Source: Lagopus muta (Eukaryota > Chordata > Aves > Galliformes > Phasianidae). Taken from it: a stretch of 64,000 nt of DNA. Below the pieces are notes generated by a model, which made no database searches, was not told the DNA's origin, and was given only the letters and a program-made list of their open reading frames with translations. Within the stretch, counting starts at the first letter, position 1. The number at the start of each line of letters is the position of its first letter. The position numbers were made by a program, and so were the translations under genes. The stretch covers positions 12,443,077-12,507,076 of the forward strand of contig NC_064438.1 in NCBI RefSeq assembly GCF_023343835.1, written 5' to 3'. Below are positions 18,736-61,000 of this stretch, piece by piece.

Positions 18736-22971
<4,236 letters not shown>

Positions 22972-27200: not shown

Positions 27201-30200
27201 TATGCTTTCTAGCACACAAAGCTTACATAAAGCCATGTATTTGGGAAAATAAATCTATGCAACTAACAAGAGTTACTATGAGAAAATTTACATTGTGCTT
27301 ACTAACCACCAATTTCTTCTGAAAATTAAGAAAGCATCACATGTTGACAATTACTAATGTTACTACTTCTTACATACAAATTGTACCAGCACATGTGTAA
27401 TTTCTTAAAGCTAAAATGAACTACTACTGAGAAAAGAGACTGAATAAATAAAGTACTGCAAAGATAGGCTCGTGAAAATACAAATGGCACAAGAGTTGAC
27501 CTGCTCTACAGTTCTGGCTTAAGCAGTTCAACCTGCTGCCAGTCAACATGACCATTTTTAGCATTTGGTCAAGTATCAGAATCAGCAGCAGAAGCTGTCA
27601 AACTGCACCACACGTATAAACTCAAGAATTTAGCACCACTACTTCTTATGGAAAGGAGTAAAGAACAGCATTTTGTGCACTGGCAAGTAAAACTTAAATC
27701 AAGCCAAACTTAAACCATGAGGGATAAAGAGTTCATTCACAGTTTAGGACTGTAACTGTAAGGCAGCCAATTGTAAACATACATCTTCCTAATCCAAACA
27801 AAAAGGTCTGATTTCACTTTAAGAACAGCATTAGCATGAATTCAGCTACTGTTTAATTTATCTAATGAATTATTCTCTATGCCAGAACCATCAATCAATT
27901 CTACTTCTTTTTGTCCTCCCCAGTCTCTCTCACTCGTGGATATTTTATGCAAAGTTCACTTCGTCATTAAAGCAGGACAGAAAAAAATCACAACACAACT
28001 AATGATTAAAGTTCACATGTAAGTGCCGACAGACCAGAAAAAGGTCTTTGCACATGGATCATCAGTTAGATTTTATATATCTTCCTAAAGAGCATGAACC
28101 CTTAGCATTTTCTGCCACTTCCATAATTAGTGCAGCTTGGGGAAGACTTTATGGCAGAGAGCCAGTAAATCCAGAGAGCACTGAAACCCTTAACCTTTAC
28201 CAGGCAGAGTCTGGTTTCAGAACTGACCTTAGAGAATCAGACTCGTATCTGAATCAGATCATTAGTGGCACACAACCGAACTGAATGAGAAAAAAAACTA
28301 TTTGAAAAAAATAATTTTAAAACTGAAGCAAGTCTGAGTATTTTTGTCCAACTCAAAATAAGCTCACTGAAGGAAACACTCCGGCACCATATATACAGCT
28401 TTGCAAGTTGTAGCTCCCTGTAAGCTCCCAATAAACTGGCACAGTAAACCATAGGGAAAAAAATATATATATCTGAATAGGAAAGAAACATTTGCAGTTT
28501 CAAGGAAAATAAGTTCACTGTAAATACACTGGATGACTATAGAGACATCTCCACATTTCATCTAGTGTGGGATAAACCACAGTCATGCACCTGCTACATC
28601 TTAGTTAGCTGCATCTAGTGAATCTGACTTGTGTTAAATTGCTACTACAAAATCTGGCATTACAACATGGTACCAGATGACCTAACAGAGGACTTCTGAA
28701 GTACTCTGTAATACCTGGCATATACTCCACCCCTCTTCATCTTCACTGAGAATGAAAAGGAAGAAAATAAATAAAATGTGACATCTATTTTAAATTAACT
28801 CTTTACACACAAAAGCAAAACAGGATTTGTTTTCAGAGAGAGACACTGTGGAAAGCCAACGTTCCCTAGAAAGGTTCCCAACACTTTTCTGTATGTCTGA
28901 CAATGAGAGCCTGCATGGACTATCAATCCTCAAGGACCAAACGACCCCACAACAGTGAGCAATACTTGGCTTTCTTGTAGGTTGTGTGGTAGCCACAACT
29001 CATGTCAGAGTGGAAACGACAGCTGAAATGACTTTCAGAGAACGCTTCTGTAATACACAAATCTGAAAGAACATGGACATGAAGGATGGGATCAGGCACA
29101 AAAAATAAGAATGATCATTTCTTGTAGTTTCCAAATTCTGTAACACAACAATTCCTCAAGTATTGTTAAGAGTAAAACTAAAGCATTCCCCTTCCTTTGC
29201 CAATCTATGAGCTTGCTTTGTTCCCAAGGCAAACTAAAACTTCAAGGGGGAAGAGCATATATAAATAACTGGGAGTTCACACATGAAATTACAAACCTGT
29301 GAATATTCTTTTAAATTACAGAGCAAGAGATTATAAACACCTTATACTCTGAAAAAAGACACAAATGTCTGTGTCCTTACCATGCAACTGTTTCAAAAGA
29401 ACTGTCCAATTGCAAAGTTATGCACCTTCCTACTAGAGAACACTTTCCAGTGGTTCCCTATCCATCACACATATCCATATTAGAAATGAGACAGAGCAGA
29501 ATCACAGAACGGCCAGGGTTGGAGGGGACCTCAAGGATCATGAATCTCCAACCCCCGCCACATGCAGGGCCGCCAACCTCCACGTTTAATATTAGACCAG
29601 GCTGCCCAGGGCCCCATCCAACCTGGCCTTGAATGTCTCCAGGGATGGACGGGGCATCCACAACCTCTCTGGGCAGCCTGTTCCAGCACCTCACCACTCT
29701 CCTAGTAAAGAATTTTCCCCTGACATCCAACCTAAATCTTCCTTCCCTCTACTTAAAACCATTTCCCCTTGTCCTGCTGTTATCAACCCTTTCGAAGAGT
29801 TGATTCCCCTCCTGTTTGTAGGCTCCCTTTAGGTACTGAAAGGCAGCAATGAGGTCACCCCACTGCCTTCTTTTCTCCAGGCTGAACAAGCCCAGCTCCC
29901 TCAGCTTGTCCTCGTAGGGGAGGTGCTCCAGTCCCCTGATCATCTTTGTGGCCCCTCCTCTGGACCCTCTCCAACAGCTCCCTGTCTTTCTTGTACTGGG
30001 GGCTCCAGATCTGGATGCAGTACTCCAGATGGGGCCTCACAAGAGCAGAGTAGAGGGGGACAATCACCTCCTGGCCACCCCAGAAACAATGCTAGTGTAT
30101 TTTGCTAGTACAGGATGACTGAGCAGCAGAATGGGAAAATATGAATCAATGCTCTTGGTTTCACTGCTGACAGGAGGTAAGAAGAAAGTAAAACAAGGAG

Positions 30201-33200: not shown

Positions 33201-36200
33201 ATTATCTCTACCAGTCCCATTTAGTTACTCCTCTTTGGTCCCATTTGGTTATTTGTTTGTGGCTCTCCCTCGCCAATACAAGCATTAATTTTGCCCCCAC
33301 CTCCACACAAATTCTTCCAGTAGTTCAAGTACAGCACAAGTGAACTACTTGTGAATATCCATCAATGTAGAAAGCCATTTTAGAATGATATTTATCAACC
33401 ATTGAGGCAGAAAGCCTTTGGTACACACTCTGGAGAGTGAGGATTTGTATAAATCAGCAGCCCAGAGCACTTACTGGTTGGTGGGCCAGTTGCCTGGTAC
33501 GGTGGGTAGCTGGCTGAAACAGTGGGCCGAGAAAAGACTGGAGGCTCCTCAGCAAACACCACAATCATAACTTGAATCAGTTCCAGCAGGTCTGACTGGG
33601 GCTGCAAGGATACACACATGGCAAGTTGGTGCCATCTGCTAACAGCTGGTTTTACTGACTGTAACAACAGAATGGGACCATTCCACACGCACACATATAC
33701 ATGTATTTATTGCTATTTATGCTACGCAAACGCTGAACTACCACTCACGTTTATTACATTTATTCCTCCCAATCACTTTTGATAGAACTAAGCCTATTCT
33801 ACAGTTATGGCCCCGTCAGCACATTTCATCTTTTTAACTAAAATGTGAACTTTCAAAAATGTCTGAGGCCTGCACTGCTGGATTTAGTTATTAATACACT
33901 CAAAGCCCCAGCAAAGTCTACCTGAAGCAGTCATACAGCACTTCATCTTAATCTGAGATCAATTTCAGCCCTGAGATGCATTAAAGAATTTGTAGTTCAC
34001 CTTCAGTAAACATTCTGGTCTCATAGTAAATATTCTTATCTTCAGGTCAGCTCCCTACTAGGCAAGGAAGCCTATGCTGCACTGTTCAATCAGACGGGCT
34101 GTCACTAAAGGCACAATTAACCAGACAACAAAACCCACAGCATTCTGAATGTTAAGATATTAAAAATAACAAGCAGTTGTTTCAAAGGAAAAAAATATCT
34201 GGATTAGTATCTCAGAAAAAGAGAGTTATGTTTCTTGTTACAGATGGTACAACTATCTGAAAAAAGAAATTAAAAGAGTAAATTAACAAGCTGAATTTCC
34301 CTCTACTTACGTATTTCCATTCATGCAGGTAAGGAAGGTATATCTTTCCATTAGCATCAACATGCTTCCCAGTTTTTATTGTCATTGAGCTAGTGGGTTT
34401 AACAAAACAGATTGGGGGATTGAAAGGGTAGGTGTCCAGCAGCCACAAGCAAATGGGGATATTGTATATGTTACCTAGAAAGATGATTTGGAAGATTTTA
34501 GGAGTGCTGTCCTTTTATATTCAGATGTTTAAAGCATACATAAAGTACCGAAAAGAGTACTGAAATATAAACAGAAATTAGAGAGCTGCACAAGCACAGA
34601 GCAGCAGTGATATGCACTACAGTTTGGTTCCATAACAAAACTAGAGACAAATATTTAAAATATGACACCATGACAAGTGAAAGCTTTCACAAAAATGGTG
34701 ATCACTGAAGTAGTGTAACTGAAGCATTACGAATATACACAGCTTTTCACGTGATTCCGTACAATAAATATAACAAGCAATAAATATAACAAGCATAACA
34801 GTGACTATATTAATAATAAAGGCATACCTCTGTAAGGCACAGGAATGGTTCCACTGAGGCTCATCAGCTCTCTAGATGAACCGTCGTTAAAAACTGAAAG
34901 GGAGCAGAGGGCATTTTGAACACAAACCTATTTGCTGTGTCAATCTCTGTTCAGGTGATAGCCTGTCTACTTGTTAATGTACATTTTCAGAAGTCATGTG
35001 TGAACACACGTACACATACACAGATACACACTGTATCAACACAGCTTGAGAAGTTCTGCTCTTGCACATCTCCCTGGCAAATGGTTGCCTATAGTCAGAT
35101 AACTCCTTATGAGTAACACATTCCTGAGAGATGGTTTACTAATTATTGACAAACTACCTTTACTGCAAATAAAACTGCTTCCTTCTTTACAGCTGAAGTA
35201 ACACATGAATTTTCTCATTTCACCCTACCAACCAGCTGCTATTGGCTCTGTGCTCAAATCTTCCAAGGCAGCTTTGGAAGAGACAGGTAACAGAAATGAG
35301 CTTCTTGCTACAGCTCAATGCTATTCTTAATTCTTAATCTTCATTCAAACTTGCATACTTTAAAGCACTGTCACAACTGTTCATTTTTAGTGAAGTATTT
35401 ACATTAATTTACAATACTTTTAAAACAGACAGAACTGTACATGTATCTTTGCATCACAGCAAATCTGAACTTGTAAGATATCAGCAATCTCCAGGGCTCT
35501 CAGCGATAGGACATATCTGAGTGACCAAATAAAAGCTGACGAGGTGGAAAAACATACCACCTCCTGGCACCTTTCTGTATTACTGAGTCTATTTCAGAAA
35601 ATTAATGTCTGTTCCAGGAGAGTAGTGACATCAAAGTTCAAAAAGAACAACTTTAAATTCTAAATTCTAGCTTTAACTCCCTACTCTCCACAAAAACTAT
35701 CAGATACATCTTATACAATGAAACTGATAAGAAGAACTTGCTCAAATCCTTACCATATGAATCCATAACAGGTTTGAGGTCCTTGTACTGAGAAATGACA
35801 CTGTTTGTCTCCTGTATAGTTAGGTCTCTGTACTTATACTGGAAAACAAAAGAGAAAAGAAGTCATTAGAGCCTAAAGATGCAGTGTAAATTGCTTTTTG
35901 TTTCACAGAATAGCCTCTGTTTATGGAAGTTACCGATGGGCATTCTTCAGCACTCTTACTTTTGAGTGAGATTTTATTTTATTTTTTTTTTTTACATAAT
36001 CAAACCAAACACTCCATTAACACCTTGAACAAGGTATTAGGATGTTTTTATTCTTAAATAAGAGTTCACAGATCAAGTTCTGGGGAAAGTTATCACATTT
36101 CATTCATATTCTGCCATAATCAACATTGCATTTTAAGCAAAGGCAAGCTTGGGACAAAGCATTTATCAGAAGTTAGTTACCAGCATCATGCAAGGCACAC

Positions 36201-37665
36201 ATTAGAAGAGACCATACTACAAACACTGGTTTCATCCCCTTACATTCATCTCAGCACAGACCTGAAGTCTCAGAACTATGACCCACAGACAAGAGGAGAT
36301 GCTCCTGGCTAGCAGAGAGCTGTTTCACCACATGGTGTGGATCTTCACCCTTGTGGCCTTTCTTCTTGCTAATAACCACTAAAACCTAACAATGAAGCCC
36401 CCTGCCCACACTCAATGCATTTCCAAGGAAGACAACCATCAGGTGGCTCAAGGAAGGGATACTGTCTAGTCCACCAGCCGTGGTAGGAAGACAAAGGGCC
36501 CTGCACAAGGTGATGCCTGATACCCAACACTGCTTGCACTGCAAACAAAACAAATGAATTCTAACACTCTCCAAGAGCAGAGGAATGTAGATCATTACAA
36601 GACAATCTTTTTCTGGGTTCATTTAGCCAATAACTGAGATGTATAAGAAATGTTAAAACCTCTTTGGAAAGAGCAACACCCTGGTGACTTCTATAAAGAT
36701 AACTACAATTGATTCATTTAAACACAGTTTTTTTCCTCCTGAAGCCTCAGACAGCAAACACACCTTCCCCATTTTACCTATCAGGAAACAGAGCAGAGAG
36801 TCGAAGCTGTCCGGGATCAGCCAACAGGCAAATGCTGATATTTGTGTTCACTCAGAGTAAGGCCTTTTGCTGTATCACACACACACGGATTCCTATAGGA
36901 AGTACCACCAAGCTTCCCTCAATAGAACAGAGCATGTAACTACTCGTGGAAAATGAAGGCAAGTGGTGAAATAGTAACTTCGTTTTTCCATCAGGTGCAA
37001 AAAGTTCCCCCCCCTTTTCACTGAGCTGACAGGAAGCCAGATGCCACTTGTGGTTTAAGAAGGGCACGAGGTGGAGTGGGAAGAGAAGGCACAGCACTGC
37101 CTTACCTCCTTATGGCATGTCGCACCTCAGCCACTCCTTTAGGGAAGCCGGGTGAGTACAAAGACGCACACCTGCTTACCCCACGTTTGCGATCAGCATT
37201 CAGTCTCCAGCCGATGACAGAAGGACCAAGTGGAGGAAAGGACCTCCAACCGCGAGCAGCCCTTAGCCTGCCACAGCTCGCTTTTGGGCGGTACCAACAA
37301 TACGACTGAACGGTAAGAAAGCAAACGCCCCCAAGCCAAAGCCACGGCTCCTCGCAGCTACCCGGCCACAGGGATTTTGTTTTCAATCTGCTGGACGAGG
37401 CCCGGTTTCCAGCTGACTAACACCGTACCGCTACCGCACGGCTCGCACCGCCTCGATGACCAGCAGCCATTTACCTCACCGCGAGTTTTGTTTCCTCAAA
37501 CGTCACCCATTAGAAAACAACACCCCCCTCCGCCGCCCCGCCGCAGCCCGTGCCCGCACTCCGCCTCCCGGCCGCGTCCGGCGGAGAGGGAAGGGCCTCT
37601 CGAGGCGCCAGGCCGCCGCCTACCTTGGCGAGCATTTTCTTCAGCTGGCTCTCCGAGAACGCCAT
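24298..37665 (-). CDS. TSG101: Tumor susceptibility gene 101 protein, ESCRT-I subunit
   Basis: Binds ubiquitinated cargo and PTAP-type motifs in ESCRT-I, driving multivesicular-body sorting and membrane scission. Ten coding exons on the minus strand, 5' to 3': 37665-37624, 35838-35754, 34893-34828, 34474-34311, 33601-33475, 32200-32137, 30786-30695, 26981-26779, 25681-25442, 24387-24298. The total is 1173 nt (390 residues, the mammalian length), or 391 residues with the upstream NAGNAG acceptor. The UEV domain (exons 1-5, about residues 1-145) is a ubiquitin-conjugating fold without the catalytic cysteine. Exons 5-7 encode a Pro/Tyr-rich linker. Exons 8-9 (about 215-316) form a coiled coil rich in E, K and L. 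PTAP stands at 320-323, where self-binding is known in mammals. The C-terminal steadiness box ends in SDLY. The start is in a perfect Kozak context (GCCGCCATGG). All introns are GT-AG; intron 7 holds a CR1. Confidence 0.97.
29498..30080 (-). mobile_element. CR1 LINE, 5'-truncated, with ORF2 remnants
   Basis: A roughly 580-bp CR1 lies in TSG101 intron 7, in the same orientation as the gene. The minus strand encodes, in broken frames, the typical CR1 reverse-transcriptase C-terminal region: a VRPHLEYC...WSPQYKKD segment near 30050-29960, an [13 protein letters not shown] segment near 29900-29860, and [15 protein letters not shown] near 29690-29640. Its 3' end reads toward 29498 (revcomp of AGAATCACAGAACGGCCAGG). 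Frameshifts and stops make it inactive. Confidence 0.92.
30787..30792 (-). promoter_or_regulatory. TSG101: NAGNAG tandem splice acceptor, TSG101 exon 7
   Basis: On the minus strand the intron ends ...TTTGTCAAAGCAG before CTTCCC, giving two overlapping acceptors (AAG at 30792-30790, CAG at 30789-30787). Both keep the frame. The first adds one serine in the Pro/Tyr-rich linker. CAG is normally the stronger acceptor, so the 390-residue form is probably the main one. Confidence 0.7.
34762..34793. repeat. Exact tandem duplication of a 16-bp unit
   Basis: Two perfect copies of CAATAAATATAACAAG lie in TSG101 intron 3, and a third partial copy starts with CA. It is a short slippage repeat with no visible role. 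Confidence 0.9.
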
Positions 37666-39403: not shown

Positions 39404-42400
39404 TTACAGTTTCAGCTGCTGCTGAAGGTCATGAATCGATCCTGCACTGCTTTGCAGTTTCTCTTGTACCAGCGGATCTTCTTCTAGTGTGATCGTTTCA
39501 ATTACTCCACTGGTTCCAAGAACACATGGAAGGCTTAAGAATACTTCACTGTTTATACTGCAAAATCCCTAAAACACACAAAGAACACTGTCACACAAAC
39601 ACATATTTCTGCTCTGTTCTTACCTGAAAAGCACGAAGTAACTTTCTTAATTTTAACTAAGCAAGGACACTTCTTCACATGGCATGACTTTGTAAATCTC
39701 CAATTATTTTAGATTCTGTGCAACAGATTACAGCAACAGTAAAGTATTACTGCACAGGTAAAAAAAACTTTGGTGCCACAAGAATTATTTCCCAATGCAA
39801 AAAATATCAGACCTCTGCAATGCAGGCAAAGCTTATTCTACAAGATACAGTTTAAACAGTTTTCTGGGTAGAGCAAGCAGTGTTACTTTTTGTACGATCA
39901 GTTCTCCTGAGACTGAGCAAAATGATTGTTACAATACAGCCAAACAAAATCATCCAAGGAAAAATTTTCAAATATTGATCATGTATTCATTCTATAGAGA
40001 CTTTCCCAAAGTTACATCACTATAATTCACTAACAATATTGTCACACTATAATGGGATGATAATAGCAGGGTGGCAAAGACTTTGGCTACAGCAAATGAA
40101 AACGAGCCCAAATGCAGCACCATGGATACAGAAAGGAGGGAAAAGAGCTGCTTACCTTTGGAAGGCCTCAGGTAGGCAGGAATCTCCAGCAAGAGATGCC
40201 CTCCCCTGCAGAGCCAACCCTTCAAAGAGGTCTGGGAAGGGGCAGATCCTGGCTCCACCCCTTCTGGTCACTCAGACACACTGCATACACATGAGCTCCC
40301 CTGGGTTGGCCCTGCCTTCCCACCAGGTGCTCAATCACTGCTTCAAACTGTGACTTAGCATTTCCACTACAAGTACAGGTTTTGTTTCTTTATAGGAGCT
40401 GTATGTGAAATTTTACATTCTGTAGTTACTCTACAGTTTAAGAGACGTGGCATTCCTCTACTTTTGTGTTTCATTTGTAGACAATTACAAACTTGACTTG
40501 AAAAAATGATGAAATTAGCAGTATATCTGTTATAATTGATACAGTAAGAAGAGTTTTGCGCTCCATTTCCCTGCACTGAGAACCGTGAGGGGCATAGAAG
40601 CAGCCAATAATGGTTTCTATAACTTTTTTCCCTCCTCTGAAATGCCTTAAAACTTTAGTGAAGCCTCTTTGGATGAACTTAAAACTGTGGGCTAAACCTT
40701 GTATGACATTACATGTACCTTAATCATCTAAAGAATGCAAAAGCAGATAAACCTTTCAAAGCTGGTCAAATAAAGTACTGGCAGGAAATGCATTTGATAC
40801 TTTCCTAAGTGATACTGAACTCTTTTGGCCCCTGGAAAAATATACACCGAACACTTGGAAACTGTGACGCATTTCTCTTCATTTGCCAAACTGAGCTGCT
40901 CCTGGGGAGCTGGTCAGCAAACATGAACACATTTTCCCCCAAATGCTTCTATTTGTTTTGAAAACAATCTACTTCCAATGTTGGTTTCAGGTTAACGCAA
41001 CAACTGATCTGTACTTCATCTGGACTGGAATTAAAAAACTCCTGTTGGAAGACAGCAGTAACCATAATGCTACTTCCAAACAGCTGCTTTATGCAGCAGG
41101 TCTGTGCTGATACAAATTAACTATCACATCCAATGTAAATCACACCACTGTAGTGGCAACCAGAAGATATTAATAACACATTACCTTCGCAAGAGTGGAT
41201 ACAGAATGAACCTTCCTTTTATCTTTCAGGATACTGTCAGTTAAATCAGCAACTGAGAGCCCAACAGACCAGGATCTCTGACCTTTTCCCTTGAGAACTT
41301 CCACAGCTCTAAATAAACCAGGAAAAGGGGAAACATAGAATGTTTAGATTTTAATTAATCCTGTTTTGATTCATATGTTGAAACCTTATAGACAGGTAAG
41401 CCTACATAAGAACATGATTCTTCATTCTGAAAAATTACATAAGAAAATAATGAACTGCTAAAAGAATGTCTTCATATATATTTTACCCAGAGTAGTAACA
41501 ATTCTTTTTTCTGGCTAATTAAATCATGTAAATTGATCCAAATTTCTCCCTAGCTTTGAAGTTTATTGCTTTCACACAGTCTCTGAGAAGTGTGTTAGAA
41601 AGCTTGCCTCTCTTTTTCTTTTCAATGCATGCAATCTGTAATTGAACTGGCAACTCTGAAACTCTGGTGTATCTTCCACAAAGCTCATCATCTCATCCTT
41701 AGGGATCACTGTGGGCAAAATATCATTTAAAGCAGAAGAACATCAAGTGTATACGCTTGCATGGAAATGAATGACACACACACCTATGGGCTCCAGGAAA
41801 CTCAATGTGTGAACATTTTACAGCAAACTTCCTCCTGTTTGTGAGGAACTGAGGAAAAGAAAACAAAAAAAACCAAAAAACTGCAAACCAAGTGTTAAAG
41901 CATGAAGAAAAATGTGAAAGTTATTATAGAGTTACCTGTTAGCCACCTTTTCCCTGGAGTCATGAGCAGCAATTGTTTCTGTTTCATTTAGAACTGACTT
42001 AGAGCTGGTCCATGATGGTACTGGACAGAAACAAACACAGCATTAAGTGTACACCTAAGCAGCAACTAAAATAAGGATGAAAAAGGCTGGGGAGAGATTA
42101 AAAAAAGGATATTAATTAATTAAAAAGGAAGCTTCCAAACCTCCCTTTCCTCATAACAAGCCAAATGTAGGGTCTCTAGATTGCAGAAATAAAATGATAG
42201 CAGCACTCTTCCCAAGACACTTGCTTAAAAATGAATTGCTATGCAAAAAATGTCACATCAGCAGTAGCCTAACATATCTTACACCACACTTCCTTCCTCT
42301 TTCAATACCTCTAATCTGCATTGCTGCACCAAAACCAAAATATTTGAGGTTATATACGTATATTTTTTTAAACAGTGACAAATGCAAAACACTTTTGCAA

Positions 42401-45400
42401 CAACTCCAGGCCTACAGGCTTGGGCACAGACCAGAATCTTATTCTTTAGAACCACTATTAGTGAAAATCACTACCCTGCTCATTACTACCTTTAGTACGT
42501 TTTTCAATCACTCTGTCATTAATACCATTAGTTAAGTACTGTCGGGACATTAAATACTCATAATGAGTATCACTTTACCTTTGTCTTCCCCTTGTTCACC
42601 AACAATCCAAGCATCTTTTCCCAGCGTCTCTGCTTGCAAAAGCTTTGTGAGTATGTACTGAAATCTCTCAGTATCCAGATTGCCACCTACTCCAATAACT
42701 CTGCTTTTGGGAAATGCGCTCAGCTTCCATGATACATATGTCATAATTTCAACTATATGCGAAAGAGAAAAGATGTTGACAATAAAGGATCGATCAAAAT
42801 TCAGCCCATTTGCAAACTGTTAGTCAGAGTTACGTAACTCCAGAGCAACTCATTTACTTTAGAAAAGGAAAAAGCATTTTTTGAGAATATTTCAGTTTAT
42901 TTAAACCAAAACAGCAAGTCAGATGGGGAGATGACGGAGGAAACTCACAGCCCACATGAAGTTTTCAGAGAAGTCAAGTGAAACCTCAGGATGAGTCACT
43001 ATGCTTCCCTTCACCACAAATCTCACATACTTCTAAATTTAATGCACTCAGTGGTTCCCCTCCCCGATCCCCATTTGGCAAGAACTCTTTTCCCCATTTT
43101 CACAGGTCTAAAATATAAGAAGGCTAAGAAGCACCTGAAAAACAGAAAAGGGCTAAGGATGCCTTCAGCCTGTTTAAAGGACAGATAGGTTCACGTGTAC
43201 TTCTCTTGTAAGAGCATTTTTGCTTTTCTCTTTTCATAGTATTACTGAGCACACAGATTTAGACTTTTCCTTAAAATATAGCTGCAATATAGTCCATGAG
43301 TTTCATCACAGAACACACAACACATACACACATGCATCTACCCTTACTGCACAGGAGAAATGTAAAAAAACACTCACAGCTGACAAGACAACAGTCAGTG
43401 GTTGCTAATCTTGTAGATACAGTGACATTTAAGCTACATACAGAAATATGCAGAAATACATACCTTTCAAACAAATCAAAGTACACTATTTTCTTTTATC
43501 TTGGTAACAGTTAAAAAAACACTGTGTCCTGCTCAGTGCTGTAAAGGAAAACATCTTTCAGAGTAGCAAGAATTTCTGACTAAGAGTGCATATTCGACAG
43601 TAATGTGTTTTTTAAACAGCCCAAAGAGAAGCCATCACAGGGACAGAACATCAGGTGAAGGGCCAACACACCTGGCTGAGAAGCAACAAGCAGCACGGAG
43701 TTCTGACTGTAGTGCGATATTGCTGGGATAATTCCTCGGAACAAATCCACATTGCTCTGTATGACATCCAGGTATGTCTGAGCATTACCCAGAGAGTTCA
43801 CTGTAAGCACCACAACTTTTGAATCAGTTGAAGTTGAAAAATCTGAAAATATAAAGAAAATGTGTTTTACGAACGTGTGTAATTGTATCGAGTGCAAAAC
43901 CAAAACACTACTCTAAATGCTGAACTGCAACATCCAATTTAAGTTGAGGATTCTTTCCTTCCTATCTTGCCTCCAGCTCCCTGTCTGCAACATGGAGCAC
44001 TTCTGCAGCACCTGTAAACAGCTCTCCCACAGAGCTAGTTTTCCCACCTTCTAGTTGACAGACAGAAGAGAATGAAGCTTGGCCAAGATGACAGAGCACA
44101 GATCAGAAAACAGTTCTGACACAAGTTTCCCATCTTAATTTTCTCAGCAAGGGAGCAAAAAATACATTTACAGAAAAGATCCTTCATTTTTACTCCAACT
44201 TCTCCAACTTAAAAAAGAAAGGCAGAGACTTCATTTCAACAACATAGGAGCTTGCTATATCACAGCTACATATAAATATTTAATACGTAATGACAAAAAC
44301 ATAAACAGAAATTTGTGCCATGGTTACACAAGGAGAGCTTAGGAAAAGAATGCACAAGCATCACAATTTGCAAGATAAGATCAAAGGACGTAGAACCCGC
44401 AGTGCCAGGTGGAAACTGAACAATCAAGTAGAATACCTGGTGGAATGGGAAACTGAGATAAACTACGTTAGAGGCCCATGAAAGCCTCACTTCTTGTCTT
44501 GCAGAAGGTCTGAAGCATGAAAAAGCACCGTGGACAAACAAGAAGTGAGGATGAAAAAGGTCATTCTATTCGCTTCCATCTTCTATTGTAGAAGAGCTTT
44601 TTTTACCATCTCAGCCTCTGCAACTAAGCTTATCAAGGACTGTACTCATCACCACTAAGTATGGGGACATGATTATTGATTCTGCTGAACTGTACACTAG
44701 CAGCTAATTGACAACCAGCTCACAGAATCATCTGGTCTGGAACAGACCTTCAAGACCACGAGGTCCAGCCATCCATCCGACCCAGAGTCCCATCACGAAA
44801 ACATGTCCCTTAGTGACACATCCACATGTCTTTTGAACGCTTCCAGGGATGGGTTAAGAATTAATTTATTGAATACATAATGATAATGATTAAGAATTAA
44901 CCACTGGTCATAAACTGATGTTTAACAAACATCAGTTGAGGAAGGTAGTACTTTGAAACTCACATTATTTATCAGTCTTTCCAACACTGCTGTCAGGGCT
45001 AGGTCTAACTCCCTACATACATACCTCTCCTCACCTTGCCCACTGCAGCAGTGACACTGATGCACTAGATTGTTTTTCTACATTTCTGCATGTGTCCAAA
45101 TTCAGAAAAAGCCTTTTAACCCAGAAGCAGGCTCAGATACTTCTAACTCTATCAACAACAAAGCCTGAAACAGAAGCATTTCAAGCTTTACTGAGTCCTC
45201 CCTTACCAGTTTTTCCACAGGAAGATACAAAAAAGCAAGAAGCTATGAAAAGATAACACCCTTTTAGAAACATGCCTTGTATACTAGAGCTTCTATAGCA
45301 CCCAGGGTGCCCCGTTCTCACTGAGACAAACACAGGCACACACACTACAGCATCAGCTCCCACTCTAGCAATGACAGCCAGCACCTTTGCTGATCTCTAC

Positions 45401-46023
45401 GTTTGGCAAAGCAAAGATCTCCAAATCCATGGTTCCTCCTTTTGCTGCACCTTCAGAAAGATCCAGAAGAACCACCTTGTCAGCAACACCCTATATGAGT
45501 AAAAACAATACAGATCAACAATAAAACCTAACTTGTTCCTGCCAGTGGTGGGGAACTATAAAAATATATTTCTCCAGTTCAAAACAGTGTTTGTTGCACT
45601 GTGTGTACAGTAAGTTCCAACAAGCTACAGCTTAGGCAATGAACTCTTAATTATGGATTTTCATAATAAGAGCATTCCTAGTTTATCTGTCTGTATTTAC
45701 AAAAGCAGAATGAGAAAGCATAGCAGAAACTAACACTTCTGTGTGTCCATAAATTAACAGGACAGAAGAAGCAAATGATATAGGCAGTGGCAACAACGTT
45801 AAAAGTGCTGAGCTACTTCTGTATCAGACACTAAGAACTAGACTGGAAGGCCCTGTATTAATTAATCAGGTGTACAGTGACTTACATTAATTACATACCT
45901 TTGCTGCAACCGCCAGCACACATGCAATGCCGAGATCTCCAGCTCCAACCACAGTCACTTTGTTAAAGCACCCTCCGTTTTTCACTCCACCCATTTTACT
46001 CTTTGATTTTATGTCAGTCTCTC
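39404..46023 (-). other. UEVLD: UEVLD exons 6-12: LDH-like half
   Basis: Exons of 125, 106, 171, 174, 85, 124 and 165 nt correspond one to one with the LDHA coding exons of 126, 118, 174, 174, 118, 124 and 165 nt. The intron phases are the same (0, 1, 1, 1, 2, 0). The Rossmann GxGxxG is kept (190-195), and so are Asp324 and Arg327 of the NLDxxRF motif. The mobile-loop arginines (R99 and R106 of LDHA) are absent, N138 becomes Q296 and H193 becomes Q351. A normal lactate dehydrogenase reaction is therefore unlikely. Confidence 0.88.
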
Positions 46024-49000
46024 CTATAGTTAAAAGGGAAACACAAACTTAAGTGCTGATCCATACTACATCAATACAGCTACTGATGCTTTACAAAGGG
46101 TCGCATCACAAAACACAAACCTCTTCAAAACAGTGGTCAAGTCCGATAACGCAACAATTCTCATACAATTCATGGAGATTTGTAACAGAAATATGAAGAT
46201 TAATTGGACATATGTATTGCATGCACAAAGATTCAGTTACTAACATTAGGTAGGCTTTTATGTCAGGAGGAAGTTCTTTACAGAGAGAGTGGTGAGATGC
46301 TGAACAGGCTGCCCAGAGAGGCTGTGGATGCCCCGTCCCTGGAGGTGTTCAAGGCCAGGTTGGATGGGGCCCTGGGCAGCCCGGTCTGGTATTAAAAGTG
46401 GAGGTTGGTGGCCCTGCATGTGATGAGGGGGAGTGGGCATTCACGATCCTTGAGGTCCCTTCCAACCCTGGCCATTCTGTGATCCTTATGATATCAAGTA
46501 ATAAATAAAACATACGTTGCCTTAGAACTACAAATATATGAAGACATCTGCACCTTCAGTAATCCTTGCGATGTAGGAGAGAAGTTCTGATTGCCTGTCT
46601 GCATCAGAAGATGACAGTGAATACAAAGGCAGCTCCTCCTCAAATTTTGCAATCATTTCCTTGATTAATCCAATGATAGTTGATTTAGGCTGAAATATAG
46701 GAAGAAGACAAAACTGTTGAGGAGCTCTTTCATATCGTTTGGTACTTGGAGCAAACACACTGTCAAGTCAGTAGAAGTTAAAGCAATAAAAGCAATTCCC
46801 ATCCATGGGAATTTCTATAATAATCAGGAAAAATACCTCTCATCATTTTTAGAAAACCAGCTTTCAGTAAATCACCACCGTGGGCCTGACAGTTGCATTT
46901 AAGTACGTTATCTAGATGGAGAACATAAAATCATTTAGAAACAGCAGTGGGTTTTCAATCTCCATCCATTCATAATGTTATAGTCAGAAGAGACATCCCC
47001 AAAAGATAGGAATTTCTGTGGAACTTAACTGGAGATACTCCGTTTGTCAGGTATGCTATTCATTATTCACTGCAATATGGGGGAAAAGAGCCAAAAGGCC
47101 CAAAAGTAACAGAGACAATCCCCCTATTTTTTTCCCAGCTGAAAAGAGTTTTCCTTACGATCACCTATAATCTTCCTTGTAAACCCTTTGGATGGGCTGA
47201 AAGCTGTAATTTTATGAGGTGTAATATCACTTCTCTTAGCATAAGCATTCCATATTTAACAAGCAATGCAAAATACAAAAAGCTCCAACCAGACCCACTG
47301 CTCTGCACTGCTCTCCATGTAGCATTGTGCATTATTCCCAGACATCTCCCTCCTCTTACATGGCTCCAGTTCTGCAGATAGGGCAAATAAATCCTGCCGT
47401 GAGCATCCACATGCTTCCCCACTGCAATGCCCATGTTGGCAGTCGGCTTCAGGAAGCAAATGGGAGGAGCAAAGGGATGAGAGTCCAAAATCCACAGACG
47501 AATGGGTATATTATAGGAGTTACCTGTTCAATGTAAACCAAAAGCCATTACAAGCTTCCGCACTGAGAAGAAACGCCAAGAAACAGGTCTGTGTGCATTT
47601 CATAATAACAAAGAGAAAAGAAGCCAGACAAATAAATGTCCTGATTTGCACTTAAAGCATTTATGTCACTTAGGCTGGTTGACAAAAGCAGACTTGTCTG
47701 AATCATCTTGGAGCATCACCGATTAGTTGTAATTAACACAGGAATTTTTCCTCTTGTTGTTTTTCCACTGGCATTTTATCAGCCAACATGACCAGTTCTA
47801 TAGGCAAATAAACTTCTTGCTGCAATCTTTTATTTATTTTTATTTTTTAAGAACTCACGATAACCGATACAAAGAGGGATCTATTAAGAGCTTTAACTCA
47901 GCTTCAAAGGCTTTAAGTTCAGAAATAAATACTTATTAGTTCTTTTTAAGCACTCTCCATACACGTGTAGGGCTTTCAAAATTCAAGCAATCTCCATTGG
48001 AACCAAAATGTTTGACTACACTGTCTCACGCTACGTGACTTTTTTAAAATAAAGTGTTTACTTGACTTGAATCATAGAATGGCTTGAGTTGGAAGAAACC
48101 TTAAAAGTTGCCTGGTCCAACTCCTCTGCAATGACCAGAGACACCTACACTACATCAGCTGCTCAGAGCCCCATCCTGCCTGACCTTGACCTGTCTCATA
48201 GCACCTTATTTCAGTATCTATATGTACATAAAGAATAGAAATGGCTTCTGCCAATTCAGGCAAAATCCTAAGCCACTTTTAATGAAGAAGCAGTTCAAAG
48301 AGCAGCACAGGTTATACCAAATCCCCAAAGGCACAATTTGCAGACCTGTATTCACATTCTCGAGTATTTGATCCTAGCGTGTGTAAATTAGCCCTGAGCA
48401 CACCCAAAATGAGAAAGGATGCCTCATCTCATACATGTAAGCTTAGCACAGCCTCATCTAATAATTCAGAGGCATAGCTGGCATGTTGGAATCTGCCGTT
48501 CCACTTCATTTACAGCACATTTAGGAGCAAGCTTAATTCCCACTAGTTGCTGGAAATGAGGTGCAGCACCCTCCCTTCTCCCCTTTTCTCCAGCCTGACT
48601 CCCAGAGGAGAAAGGCCACTGCTGCCACTTCAGCCATGCCTCTTTCTCAGGCTCTCCACAGTGTGTCGCTGGGATGCACAGCAGGTAAGGAAACCGTACA
48701 CAGCAACTCCTACCATATTTCACTGGGACAGTGCCACTGAAATTCAGGAGGTCTTTCTGGGATCCATCCTTGAAGGCTGAAATTAAAACAAACAAACAAT
48801 CCTAATGCAGAATGACAACAATACACTCCTAATCACAGAACCATAGAATGGCCTGGGTTGAAAAGGACCACAATGATCATCTAGTTCCAACCCCCTGCTA
48901 TGTGCAGAGTCGCCAACCAGCAGACCAGGCTGCCCAGAGCCACATCCAGCCTGGCCTTGAATGCCTCCAGGGATGGGGCATCCACAGCCTCCTTGGGCAA

Positions 49001-49504
49001 CCTGTTCCAGGGATTCACCACCCTCTGTGTGAAAAACTTCCTCCTAAAATCTAACCTAAACCTCCCTTGCCTCAGTTTAAGACCATTCCCCCTTATCCAA
49101 ATGTGTCCCTAGAAACCAGAAGCATCACTCTTGGCACAGACAGTACAGAATCCCACCCTGCCCCGCAGTCACTGGTGTTTCCCCACAGAGCCGGGCAGGC
49201 AAGAGCCCACTCTCCCCTCAGAGTAGCGCATCCCTCCTTACTGTAAGTGTTCATGGAGAAGGAGAAGTTCGGGTGCGCCCTGCTGACAGCCGTCACTTCC
49301 TCTACGGTCAGGTCTCTGAACTTGTACTGGGAGCGGGAGACAAAAACCCAGACAGAAACGTTTCGTCTCGGCGGCCCCGCCTTCCCCTTTCGCTTTTCCC
49401 AACCGAGGACCGCCGTAGCGCCGTGCCGAACCCCTCCCGGCCCCGCGCGCCCCGTCCCGCACCTTGCCCAGCTGCTTCCGCAGCGCCTCCGCCGAGAACG
49501 CCAT
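39404..49504 (-). CDS. UEVLD: UEV and lactate/malate dehydrogenase domain-containing protein
   Basis: Fusion of an inactive ubiquitin-conjugating (UEV) domain with an LDH-like domain; the cellular role is poorly defined, possibly protein degradation. Twelve minus-strand exons: 49504-49463, 49326-49242, 48776-48714, 47523-47360, 46689-46554, 46023-45899, 45490-45385, 43842-43672, 42752-42579, 42020-41936, 41308-41185, 39568-39404. They total 1440 nt, giving 479 residues with no internal stop; all introns are GT-AG. Residues 1-150 align with TSG101 (RIYLPYL matches KIYLPYL). Residues about 180-479 align with LDHA, with GAGDLG at 190-195 as the Rossmann motif. The start [14 protein letters not shown] is in a good Kozak context (GCGGCCATGG). 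The LDH half lacks the catalytic His (Q351). The gene lies directly behind TSG101 in the same orientation. Confidence 0.95.
44721..44853 (-). mobile_element. CR1 LINE 3' fragment
   Basis: Diverged CR1 3' sequence in UEVLD intron 7, sense to the gene. The plus strand starts CACAGAATCATCTGGTCTGG and ends in the GCTTCCAGGGATGGG phrase. It has no coding content. Confidence 0.85.
46261..46485 (+). mobile_element. CR1 LINE 3' fragment, antisense to UEVLD
   Basis: The plus strand carries the end of CR1 ORF2 (AACAGGCTGCCCAGAGAGG, encoding [13 protein letters not shown]) and its 3' UTR, closing with GGCCATTCTGTGAT. It fills nearly half of the 530-bp UEVLD intron 5. It is the only clear CR1 in the window on the plus strand. 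Confidence 0.92.
48070..48190 (-). mobile_element. CR1 LINE 3' fragment
   Basis: The plus strand reads AATCATAGAATGGCTTGAGTTGGAAG and continues to a CATCCTGCCTGACCTTGA phrase. This is the reverse complement of a CR1 3' end, in UEVLD intron 3, sense to the gene. Confidence 0.9.
48831..49103 (-). mobile_element. CR1 LINE 3' fragment
   Basis: A well-preserved 270-bp CR1 3' end in UEVLD intron 2, sense to the gene. It includes the 3' terminal octamer region (CATAGAATGG on plus), the CTGGCCTTGAATGCCTCCAG segment and the GGGCAACCTGTTCCAGG segment. It makes up more than half of the 465-bp intron. Confidence 0.93.
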
Positions 49505-58000: not shown

Positions 58001-61000
58001 ATTCATCATCTTCATCATCATCATCTATTTGTCTTTTGTAACCAACAGGTGGTCTCCCAATACCTAAATGAAAGGGATGTGGAAAAAAACATCAATGAAT
58101 AACACACATTTATCAGTACATTTTGTTGCTATGCTTTGGGCTTTGAGGTAGAAAACTGCTGCCTTGAGCTAATTAGAAATTCTTAAAGTCAGTAAAAGGA
58201 AACACTTCCTCCGCTAACATCAACTGCACCCCAAGGAAAATCACCAGACATAACTCCACATTCTTGTTCAAAGTTTTCTAGGTACTTATTTGCTAGAGTT
58301 CATGCTGCTTTCTCCTGTTCAGGAATCCATTTTTTGAACTACTCACTTGGCTGATAAGGTGAATCAGTGAAAACATGTAGGTATCAATCGCAGGTTTGCT
58401 GTGAATTAAGCCCCAGGCCCTTACCTCAAAGAATGTGAGCTAGGGTCAAAACAAATGAAGAGTTGCAAAGGCAAGAAAAACCCACAACATTCCATTGCTT
58501 AATGCATTCTTTAAAAGATAAATACGGTATTTTGTCTGAGTTTTCTTGGATAAAGATCATCACTGACCTCAACTCAGACATATCAGAAATATGGGACAAA
58601 CAACTAATTAAAAAATTAATTGCTACAGAACTTTGTACCTTGTGAGCGAAACGGAGGCCTATGCCCTTGAAGAGATCTCATTCCATTCATCTGTCCATTG
58701 CTGGGCCTCGTCACTAGGTTTTTGGAAGAAATAGTTTCTGATACGACAGTACACCTGGGCTTTACAGCTGTAAAGCCAGGTCGCCCAGGTCCTGCACTCG
58801 GGCTGACTCCTGGCCTTCCCGGCCCCGTTCCTGAGCTGCTGCCCGGCCGCCCAGGTCCTGCACTCGGGCTGACTCCCGGCCTCCCTGGTCCCGTTCCCAT
58901 GCTGCTGCCCAGTCTCCCAGGTGCTGTATTTGTGCTGTTGCCCGGCCTTCCCGGGCCGGTGCCTGAGCTGCCACCTGGACGCCCAAGTCCAGTGCTTGAG
59001 CTGCCACCTGGCCTTCCAGGTCCCACGCCTGAGCCGCTGCCCGGTCGCCCAGGTCCCATGCTTGAGCTGCTGCTTGGCCTTCCAGGTCCTGCGGCCGAGC
59101 TGCTGCCCTGTCGCCCGGGCCCTGGGCTTGAGACGCTCCCTGGCCTTCCTGGTCCCATGCCAGAATTGCTGCTTGATCGCCCTGGTCCTGCACTTGATCC
59201 TCCACCTGGATGCCCAGGTCCTCCCTTTCCTAAACTGCTGCTGGATCGTTTTGAGCTGGAGTTCATTTCATGCGGGAGGGCTGCAGCATTTCCTGGTTTT
59301 GTATGGACAGGCTTTTTCAGGCTGGATTCTTTAGCAGACGGTAACCTTTGAGCCCCATTGGCCATTGGCTTTGAGGATGGCACAGGAAAGCTTGAGCCAG
59401 ACTTTCCCATACCATTGACAGGTAATTTACTATGACTGCCAGCAGTAGGGGTTTTCAAGGAACTATTTTGTGAGGTTTTTACTTTTTCCATTTGACTCAA
59501 TTTGGAAGAAGATAACGACCGCGAGTGCTTGTCCGTCAATGCTGGTGCTTTGGATTTCTTATCAGTACCACTCAGAGAAGAGAGGCTGCTTTTTGGAGAG
59601 GCATGTTTATCTGCTGCACTTTTGCTAAGTTTTGCATCTGCACATTCCTTCAGGGAAGTTGTTTTTTTTGAAGAACTGGATATCCCTGTATTCTTAACCT
59701 CCTTCTCGGTTTTCTTTTTCTGCATTTCTACTCTCTTATTTTTGCGTTCCAAATACTCCCTCTCTCTCAATTCTTCCGCAGTTCTGGGTCTCTCTTCTAT
59801 CTTTTTCACTACTTTTATTTCTACCGGTTCATATTGTTTTTTTTCAGCAAGCCTTAAAAGATCTGCAAAGTTGAGAGGTGCTGGTGCACTTTTGGGTGGT
59901 GCCTTTGGTTTGACTGCAGCTTTGGATGGTTTCTCATCATATTCTTCTTGCTCATACTCCGATTCAGTTTGAGTAAATTCGAGTTGCTCTGCTTCATTTT
60001 CTGTTGCATACTCAGCCTCGGGGGCCTGAGAAACATTCTCACAAGTCCTCCTCCTCTTTTTAGACTTCTCTTCAACGGGAATACCGTTATAGCCATAAAA
60101 GTTATCCTTTGTTCGTGAAGCCATAGCTCTTGCCTTCCTGTCATGTTTCAGTTCAATTCGCTTAGCCAAGAGTCGTTCTTTCTTTCTTTTTTCTTCCAGT
60201 TCTGTAAAAGAAAAATCAGGAGAAAGTTAAACAAAAGCACTACTCTTTTATTTCAGGGTCTTCTAAACTGATAAACCATCTGAGACAATAAGATATCTGG
60301 CTAACAGCTATTCAGAATAGAGCAGAACACCATCAGAGGTCTGCCAACAGGGCAACGTGATCCATCTGAGTCAGCTGTTTTTACAAAAGTGAACTATTAA
60401 GCCAAATACAGCCCCTACCAAACCTGCTAAGCTGACTCAACAGAAGCAACTCTCCAGAATGCTACACAAACTACAAGAACTCCGTGGTAAAAAGACACAG
60501 GACATGGGATCTCTGAGGAGAAAGAGTTCTGACACTGACTAAAAGAATTTTGAGACTGTACAAAATTTACTATCAGATGTTTAAGAAAAGGTGAGGAAAG
60601 GGAGGGATGGATGGAGGAGTTTTAGGGCAAGGGAATATGCCCTGGAAAGTAGACTGAGGTGGGGAAGCAGGCAGTTACCGATGAGCAAGGTGCGGGTCAC
60701 TGCTTCTGTGTGACAGTGCCCTGTGCACCATCTCCACAGCCTGCCCTATATTGTTCCTAAATTGTTTTTACCTATTTCCTGCATGAGTAGGCTCTCCATC
60801 TTATGTGTCTTGTGTATGATCTGCTGATGTAATTCAGGCTGAACTCAATGGTGAAAAGATGAGAGGTCTGAGCACCGGATACTGGAGAGACAGGGAATAG
60901 GGGCCAAATACCATAAAGACTCAGGAGAAAGGGGCATCTCTGAGCATCAGTTCCTAGAAATCGGACGGGGAAACTCATGCTGTGCTTTAAATGGGTTCCT

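Follow-up and report, generated by a model that had tools for sequence, protein, structure and literature searches.

The gene UEVLD, which joins a ubiquitin E2 variant (UEV) domain to a lactate dehydrogenase (LDH) domain, lies in a 64,000-nucleotide (nt) stretch of the Lagopus muta genome, hereafter the window, that also holds TSG101 and LDHA. TSG101 and UEVLD are encoded on the minus strand, and LDHA on the plus strand. Gene models for UEVLD, for LDHA and for TSG101 exons 1 to 5 were built from open frames and splice sites. They place both TSG101 and LDHA next to UEVLD, as a preliminary description of the locus had said, and recover exactly the 22 exon lengths that it listed (11 for UEVLD, four for TSG101 and seven for LDHA), together with both end coordinates. 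In our model, UEVLD extends from an ATG at 49504 to a stop at 39404 and comprises 12 coding exons of 42/85/63/164/136/125/106/171/174/85/124/165 nt, encoding 479 amino acids. GT donors and AG acceptors are present at all 11 of its introns, and at the four introns that separate TSG101 exons 1 to 5.

The first five exons of TSG101 (33475..37665, minus strand; 42/85/66/164/127 nt) encode its UEV domain, and further TSG101-like open frames lie below 33475. Each of these exons has a counterpart in UEVLD, alike in phase and, exons 3 and 5 excepted, in length: exon 1 (49463..49504, 42 nt), exon 2 (49242..49326, 85 nt), exon 3 (48714..48776, 63 nt against 66 nt in TSG101), exon 4 (47360..47523, 164 nt) and exon 5 (46554..46689, 136 nt against 127 nt), all on the minus strand. 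The introns after exons 1 to 4, that of exon 2 among them, agree with those of TSG101 in both alignment column and phase (4/4), and 77 of 142 residues are identical between the two UEV domains. Intron 5 has phase 1 in both genes and is offset by four alignment columns in a gappy stretch. Exon 5 nevertheless starts in the same column in UEVLD and TSG101, enters in phase 0 and leaves in phase 1 in both, and its first 24 codons align with the start of TSG101 exon 5. It is therefore the counterpart of that exon, the last of the UEV half, and no extra linker exon has to be assumed; the fusion joint lies at its donor. The preliminary description had not listed this exon.

The LDH half repeats the plan of LDHA (18736..22971, plus strand), whose seven coding exons of 126/118/174/174/118/124/165 nt encode 332 amino acids. 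On the minus strand, UEVLD exon 6 (45899..46023, 125 nt), which carries the NAD-binding GxGxxG motif, pairs with the first LDHA coding exon. It is followed by exon 7 (45385..45490, 106 nt; LDHA 118), exon 8 (43672..43842, 171 nt; LDHA 174), exon 9 (42579..42752, 174 nt; LDHA 174), exon 10 (41936..42020, 85 nt; LDHA 118), exon 11 (41185..41308, 124 nt; LDHA 124) and exon 12 (39404..39568, 165 nt including the stop; LDHA 165). In a protein alignment, all six introns of this half share column and phase with those of LDHA, at columns 41, 81, 139, 197, 236 and 277 and in phases 0, 1, 1, 1, 2 and 0, respectively. Taking both halves together, phase is common to UEVLD and the parental genes at 11/11 introns, as the preliminary description had claimed for the exons that it listed, and the alignment column also at 10/11. 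By a simple count under random placement, the chance of such exact coincidence is about 1e-15 for the six LDH introns and about 7e-10 for the first four introns of the UEV half; with clear sequence homology in addition, we give practically no credence to the idea that the exon structure is coincidental or convergent. UEVLD is thus made of TSG101 exons 1 to 5 followed by seven LDH coding exons. The shared introns do not single out LDHA as the parent, however, because LDHB presumably has the same exon plan.

Exon 10 was located by a splice search among 61 candidate exons in the intron. The exon at 42020-41936, with donor CAG|GTAACT, clearly beat an alternative at 41708-41636 (73 nt, with a non-canonical AT donor). 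With it, the PDB UEVLD chain is matched at 425 bits instead of 417.5, and Pfam Ldh_1_C scores 47.3 instead of 38.6. The chosen exon is divergent: it encodes seven residues more than human UEVLD, yet is shorter than its LDHA equivalent (85 versus 118 nt). This suggests that the segment, which would lie near the active site, is under weak constraint.

The domain content agrees with the preliminary description of UEVLD as a UEV-LDH protein: the 479-residue product scores above the gathering thresholds of Pfam UEV (150.6 bits), Ldh_1_N (83.5 bits) and Ldh_1_C (47.3 bits). At E 0.001 these are the only Pfam families matched. Downstream of the UEV domain no ESCRT-I core is recognised, so that UEVLD lacks, by this search, the coiled-coil plus C-terminal ESCRT-I core that characterize TSG101/Vps23. 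Solved relatives of the UEV half comprise seven TSG101 chains and two yeast-type chains. Among solved structures, the LDH half comes closest to UEVLD itself, the chain 2i6t, with 425 bits compared to 236.8 for the top LDH (phmmer); 201 of 290 residues (69.3%) are identical to the UEVLD LDH domain of PDB 2i6t/3dl2, that is, human UEVLD/UEV3. Like vertebrate LDHA and LDHB, UEVLD has the two LDH domains of Pfam, the GxGxxG motif and the ribose-binding Asp; it differs from vertebrate LDHs in the shorter exons 7, 8 and 10, in several catalytic residues, and in falling under the cut-off of the NCBIfam L-LDH model TIGR01771 (209 against a cut-off of 303.55, with LDHA at 395.7).

The catalytic differences are specific. 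Using the residue names and numbers that we take to be standard for LDH sites, the LDH half keeps the GxGxxG glycines, the ribose-binding Asp, Asp168 and Arg171, and shows the replacements Arg105 to Tyr (at the substrate-loop arginine position, in exon 8), Asn140 to Gln, His195 to Gln (in exon 9), Asp197 to Glu and Thr246 to Arg (in exon 11), as well as the deletion of one loop residue. His195, Arg105, Asn140 and Thr246 were found as the standard residues in all eight LDHs compared, and are absent from both the window UEVLD and human UEVLD (2i6t), whose catalytic-site replacements are identical. Since lactate turnover requires His195 and Arg105, the LDH half is in all likelihood a non-enzyme that has been conserved as such. 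In the UEV half, Tyr stands at what we take to be the position of the E2 active-site cysteine, within the aligned segment IYLPYL; TSG101 likewise has Tyr there. Among TSG101 residues that we assume to contact PTAP motifs or ubiquitin, Phe44, Asp46, Thr58, Tyr63, Tyr68, Trp75, Phe88, Lys90, Met95 and Ser143 are kept, Val43 is replaced by Thr, Asn45 by Lys, Pro139 by Leu, Val141 by Leu and Phe142 by Tyr, and Arg64 is deleted. From these residues we mostly infer that UEVLD would be a double non-enzyme, combining a UEV without the E2 cysteine and an LDH fold without the residues for its chemistry.

As for the parent of the LDH half, comparisons used letters from the window sequence and from PDB alignments. 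We take PDB 1i10 to be human LDHA, 1i0z human LDHB, 5k0z chicken LDHB, 1ldm dogfish LDHA and 2i6t human UEVLD, with two further chains as Bacillus-type LDHs; 6or9 is termed invertebrate-like on the strength of its being the best match of an unverified Drosophila LDH sequence (489.2 bits versus 465.1 for the next chain). Identity of the window UEVLD to LDHA is 37.6% (window), 37.7% (human) and 37.3% (dogfish), to LDHB 38.7% (chicken) and 38.2% (human), and to 6or9 38.8%; the two bacterial LDHs reach 28.2% and 27.9%. For human UEVLD, the values in the same order are 40.9%, 42.6%, 39.9%, 41.2%, 41.6% and 37.8%, and then 26.6% and 25.3%. With 37.3-38.8% to six animal LDHs versus 27.9-28.2% to two bacterial ones, the LDH half belongs with animal LDHs. 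A scan with LDHA found two bacterial LDHs among prokaryotic contigs, which were not used further, and no LDH among viral contigs.

Site counts were made over 285 alignment columns. At eight sites where LDHA is derived (LDHB being equal to 6or9), neither the window UEVLD nor human UEVLD shows the LDHA state (0/8 in each), and at four sites with LDHB-derived states the count is 0/4 in each. Seven sites have LDHA, LDHB and 6or9 all different; at none of them does the window UEVLD agree with LDHA or LDHB, and human UEVLD agrees with LDHB at one. At the 45 sites where LDHA and LDHB agree and differ from 6or9, the window UEVLD has 14 vertebrate states, seven 6or9-type states and 24 others, and human UEVLD 16, four and 25, respectively. 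Sites invariant in the animal LDHs used number 140, of which 75 are kept in the window UEVLD and 74 in human UEVLD. Small as these numbers are, the pattern points to a putative LDH donor within the chordate lineage, dating from the split of LDHA and LDHB or from earlier. That duplication postdates the separation of vertebrates from tunicates, lamprey having a single LDH, according to the part of PMC2570690 available to us.

Four data sets were used for trees: sets of 10 and 8 taxa, with letters from the window or the PDB, and the same two with the unverified Drosophila LDH added. In all four, the best placement of UEVLD is as sister of LDHA plus LDHB, with approximately unbiased (AU) test values of 0.904, 0.82, 0.821 and 0.64. 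A position as sister of the window's own LDHA is not rejected either (AU 0.128, 0.109, 0.15 and 0.131). UEVLD as sister of the two invertebrate LDHs gives AU 0.112 (11 taxa), and a tree in which it splits these two is rejected (AU 0.003, 9 taxa). Trees computed with the rejected exon-10 model again put UEVLD near the LDHA/LDHB split; with that model, an LDHA-sister tree is best by 0.03 log units in one of the four data sets (animals plus the unverified Drosophila LDH), and positions outside or beside the invertebrate LDHs give AU 0.044 (10 taxa) and 0.095 (11 taxa).

On balance, we consider it probable that UEVLD is an old fusion in which splicing joined exons 1 to 5 of a TSG101 copy to all seven coding exons of a copied LDH gene, that this LDH copy branched near, and most likely before, the LDHA/LDHB split, and that the product is a double non-enzyme. 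Several points weigh against this reading. Branch support for UEVLD as sister of LDHA plus LDHB is weak: values of the Shimodaira-Hasegawa-like approximate likelihood ratio test and of the ultrafast bootstrap are 78.9/67, 82.3/67, 61.7/45 and 21.2/37. The UEVLD branch is long (about 0.9-1.0 substitutions per site), hence the poor resolution of the trees, and the sampling leaves out cyclostomes, tunicates and amphioxus. Placement as sister of LDHB is not rejected (AU 0.315, 0.238, 0.42 and 0.478), nor are those as sister of all LDHA (AU 0.313, 0.385, 0.423 and 0.478) or of amniote LDHA (AU 0.36, 0.359, 0.579 and 0.609).

These last results bear on a first alternative, in which LDHA itself, once it had diverged from LDHB, supplied the LDH half as an inverted copy. 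LDHA is the neighbour of UEVLD and has all six LDH-half intron positions in common with it, and trees uniting the two are left standing at AU 0.31-0.48. Scores from phmmer also mildly favour LDHA: on our assignment of species, UEVLD reaches 231-237 bits with mammal-type LDHA chains, compared to 223.1 with human LDHB (1i0z), 220.9 with chicken LDHB and 208 with 6or9. There is, moreover, a small lean to LDHA in the identities of human UEVLD (42.6% to human LDHA versus 41.6% to human LDHB for the PDB chain). The window UEVLD shows no such lean, being no closer to its own LDHA (37.6%) than to LDHB (38.7%), and the score of dogfish LDHA 1ldm (224.3 bits) is about that of LDHB 1i0z. Given also the absence of LDHA-derived states from both UEVLDs (0/8) and a best placement outside LDHA in 4/4 data sets, we hold descent from LDHA to be possible though rather unlikely.

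The preliminary description had proposed that UEVLD arose by local copying of both neighbours. For the UEV half this stands, with TSG101 as the gene copied; for the LDH half, an animal-type LDH with the exon plan of LDHA is upheld, and LDHA as the parent is not, in view of the missing derived states and of trees that do not divide the candidates. The proposal that the LDH copy was inverted relative to LDHA is not established: it restates the present orientation of the genes on opposite strands, and a single locus cannot polarise the event.

A second alternative is that the fusion predates vertebrates, the common introns being ancient animal introns and the present neighbourhood a leftover or a coincidence. 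In its favour, the window UEVLD is as identical to 6or9 (38.8%) as to vertebrate LDHs. Trees with UEVLD outside the vertebrate LDHs plus 6or9, a position that the preliminary description had named as one that would speak against its scheme, are not the best, yet they are disfavoured rather than formally rejected (AU 0.069 with 10 taxa, 0.168 with 11 taxa). A tapeworm gene, too, has been named E2 variant 3 (PMC7204028); if it is truly a UEV-LDH fusion, a vertebrate-only origin fails, but this is an annotation name only. Vertebrate-type states, on the other hand, are two to four times as frequent as 6or9-type ones in the UEVLDs (14:7 and 16:4), and the gain of the UEV domain has been placed in one branch with vertebrate genes, as far as the accessible part of PMC2926785 goes. 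We judge a pre-vertebrate fusion to be improbable.

If, as we favour, the LDH copy branched near the LDHA/LDHB split and most likely before it, this would have occurred in the vertebrate stem, and the donor may have been an LDH that then adjoined TSG101, LDHA being the surviving resident of that locus. Transcription from the TSG101 copy would have run on and skipped the start region of the LDH. The joint has on one side the donor of exon 5, which is in phase 1 just as it is in TSG101, and on the other the acceptor of the first LDH coding exon. In LDHA, this exon has its nearest AG, taken as the acceptor, 9 nt ahead of the ATG; UEVLD exon 6 starts near the equivalent place, and the frame reads straight through. 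The fusion thus seems to have re-used the LDH exon's own acceptor, whereby LDH leader sequence would have become coding.

Nucleotide comparison between the genes (blastn, E 1e-3) gave three exon-exon matches, two between LDHA and UEVLD and one between TSG101 and UEVLD (exon 4), plus three that are transposon-like; this result indicates that the copying is old. No leftover LDH or TSG101 exon 1-5 fragments were found in the window outside known exons by tblastn (best E 0.043), with LDHA, UEVLD (with the rejected exon 10) and exons 1 to 5 of TSG101, not its later ones, as queries.

Other features of the window may be noted. Retrotransposon-like copies lie in TSG101/UEVLD introns at 29497-29774, 46260-46486 and 48836-49098, with 75-86% identity to the first; their peptides resemble what we take to be the tail of the bird CR1 long interspersed nuclear element, a resemblance that would make an avian origin of the window probable. 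The second coding exon of LDHA has a GC donor (GCAAGT, 19740-19745, plus strand) in place of GT; GC donors are a rare but known intron type. An open frame of 536 codons at 58616-60226 (minus strand), with a run of GPGRPG-like repeats, presumably corresponds to SPTY2D1, to judge by its position next to UEVLD.

The UEVLD fusion is largely known already, and its TSG101-derived half is published: Buljan et al. (2010, PMC2926785), in the portion available, present UEVLD as a case where a domain was gained when the neighbouring TSG101 was duplicated and exons were joined. Their case agrees with ours in the TSG101 duplication, the joining to a gene of the LDH family, the identical intron phases and the vertebrate branch. 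That portion deals with the UEV side; the exon-for-exon agreement of the LDH side with LDHA, how old the LDH donor is and the loss of catalytic residues are not covered in it, nor did we meet these points elsewhere in a shallow look at the literature. An equally shallow look at work on pseudoenzyme, inactive or dehydrogenase activity did not turn up UEVLD, and the terms UEV, TSG101 and lactate are absent from PMC3927616. A 2025 paper (PMC12513931) gives the domain order as UEV then LDH; it regards UEVLD as paralogous to TSG101, calls its function unknown and considers that pockets for ubiquitin and for peptides may be present. The LDH side, that is, the age of the donor relative to LDHA/LDHB and the retention of non-catalytic residues, seems to be less covered.

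Judging from its residues, the likeliest role of UEVLD would be that of a multivalent adaptor: through its LDH fold the protein would oligomerise and so present several UEV domains; control of this putative adaptor by NAD is possible. One may go further and imagine a redox-gated adaptor for ubiquitin and late motifs, in which the dead LDH fold would bind NAD(H) and the NADH level would shift its oligomeric state or conformation, so controlling engagement of cargo by the UEV domain, the LDH half being a living relic of the lone LDH that stood beside TSG101 before the LDHA/LDHB split; we offer this as speculation to which we assign only a small chance.

UEVLD illustrates cleanly how a new multi-exon protein can be formed when a neighbouring gene is copied and exons are joined, and every parental splice position can still be read in it. 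Two distant UEVLDs agree in the non-catalytic residues that they retain, and this raises the question of why they do so, and of what a dead LDH joined to a dead E2 is for. A second question raised is whether the fused LDH predates LDHA and LDHB.

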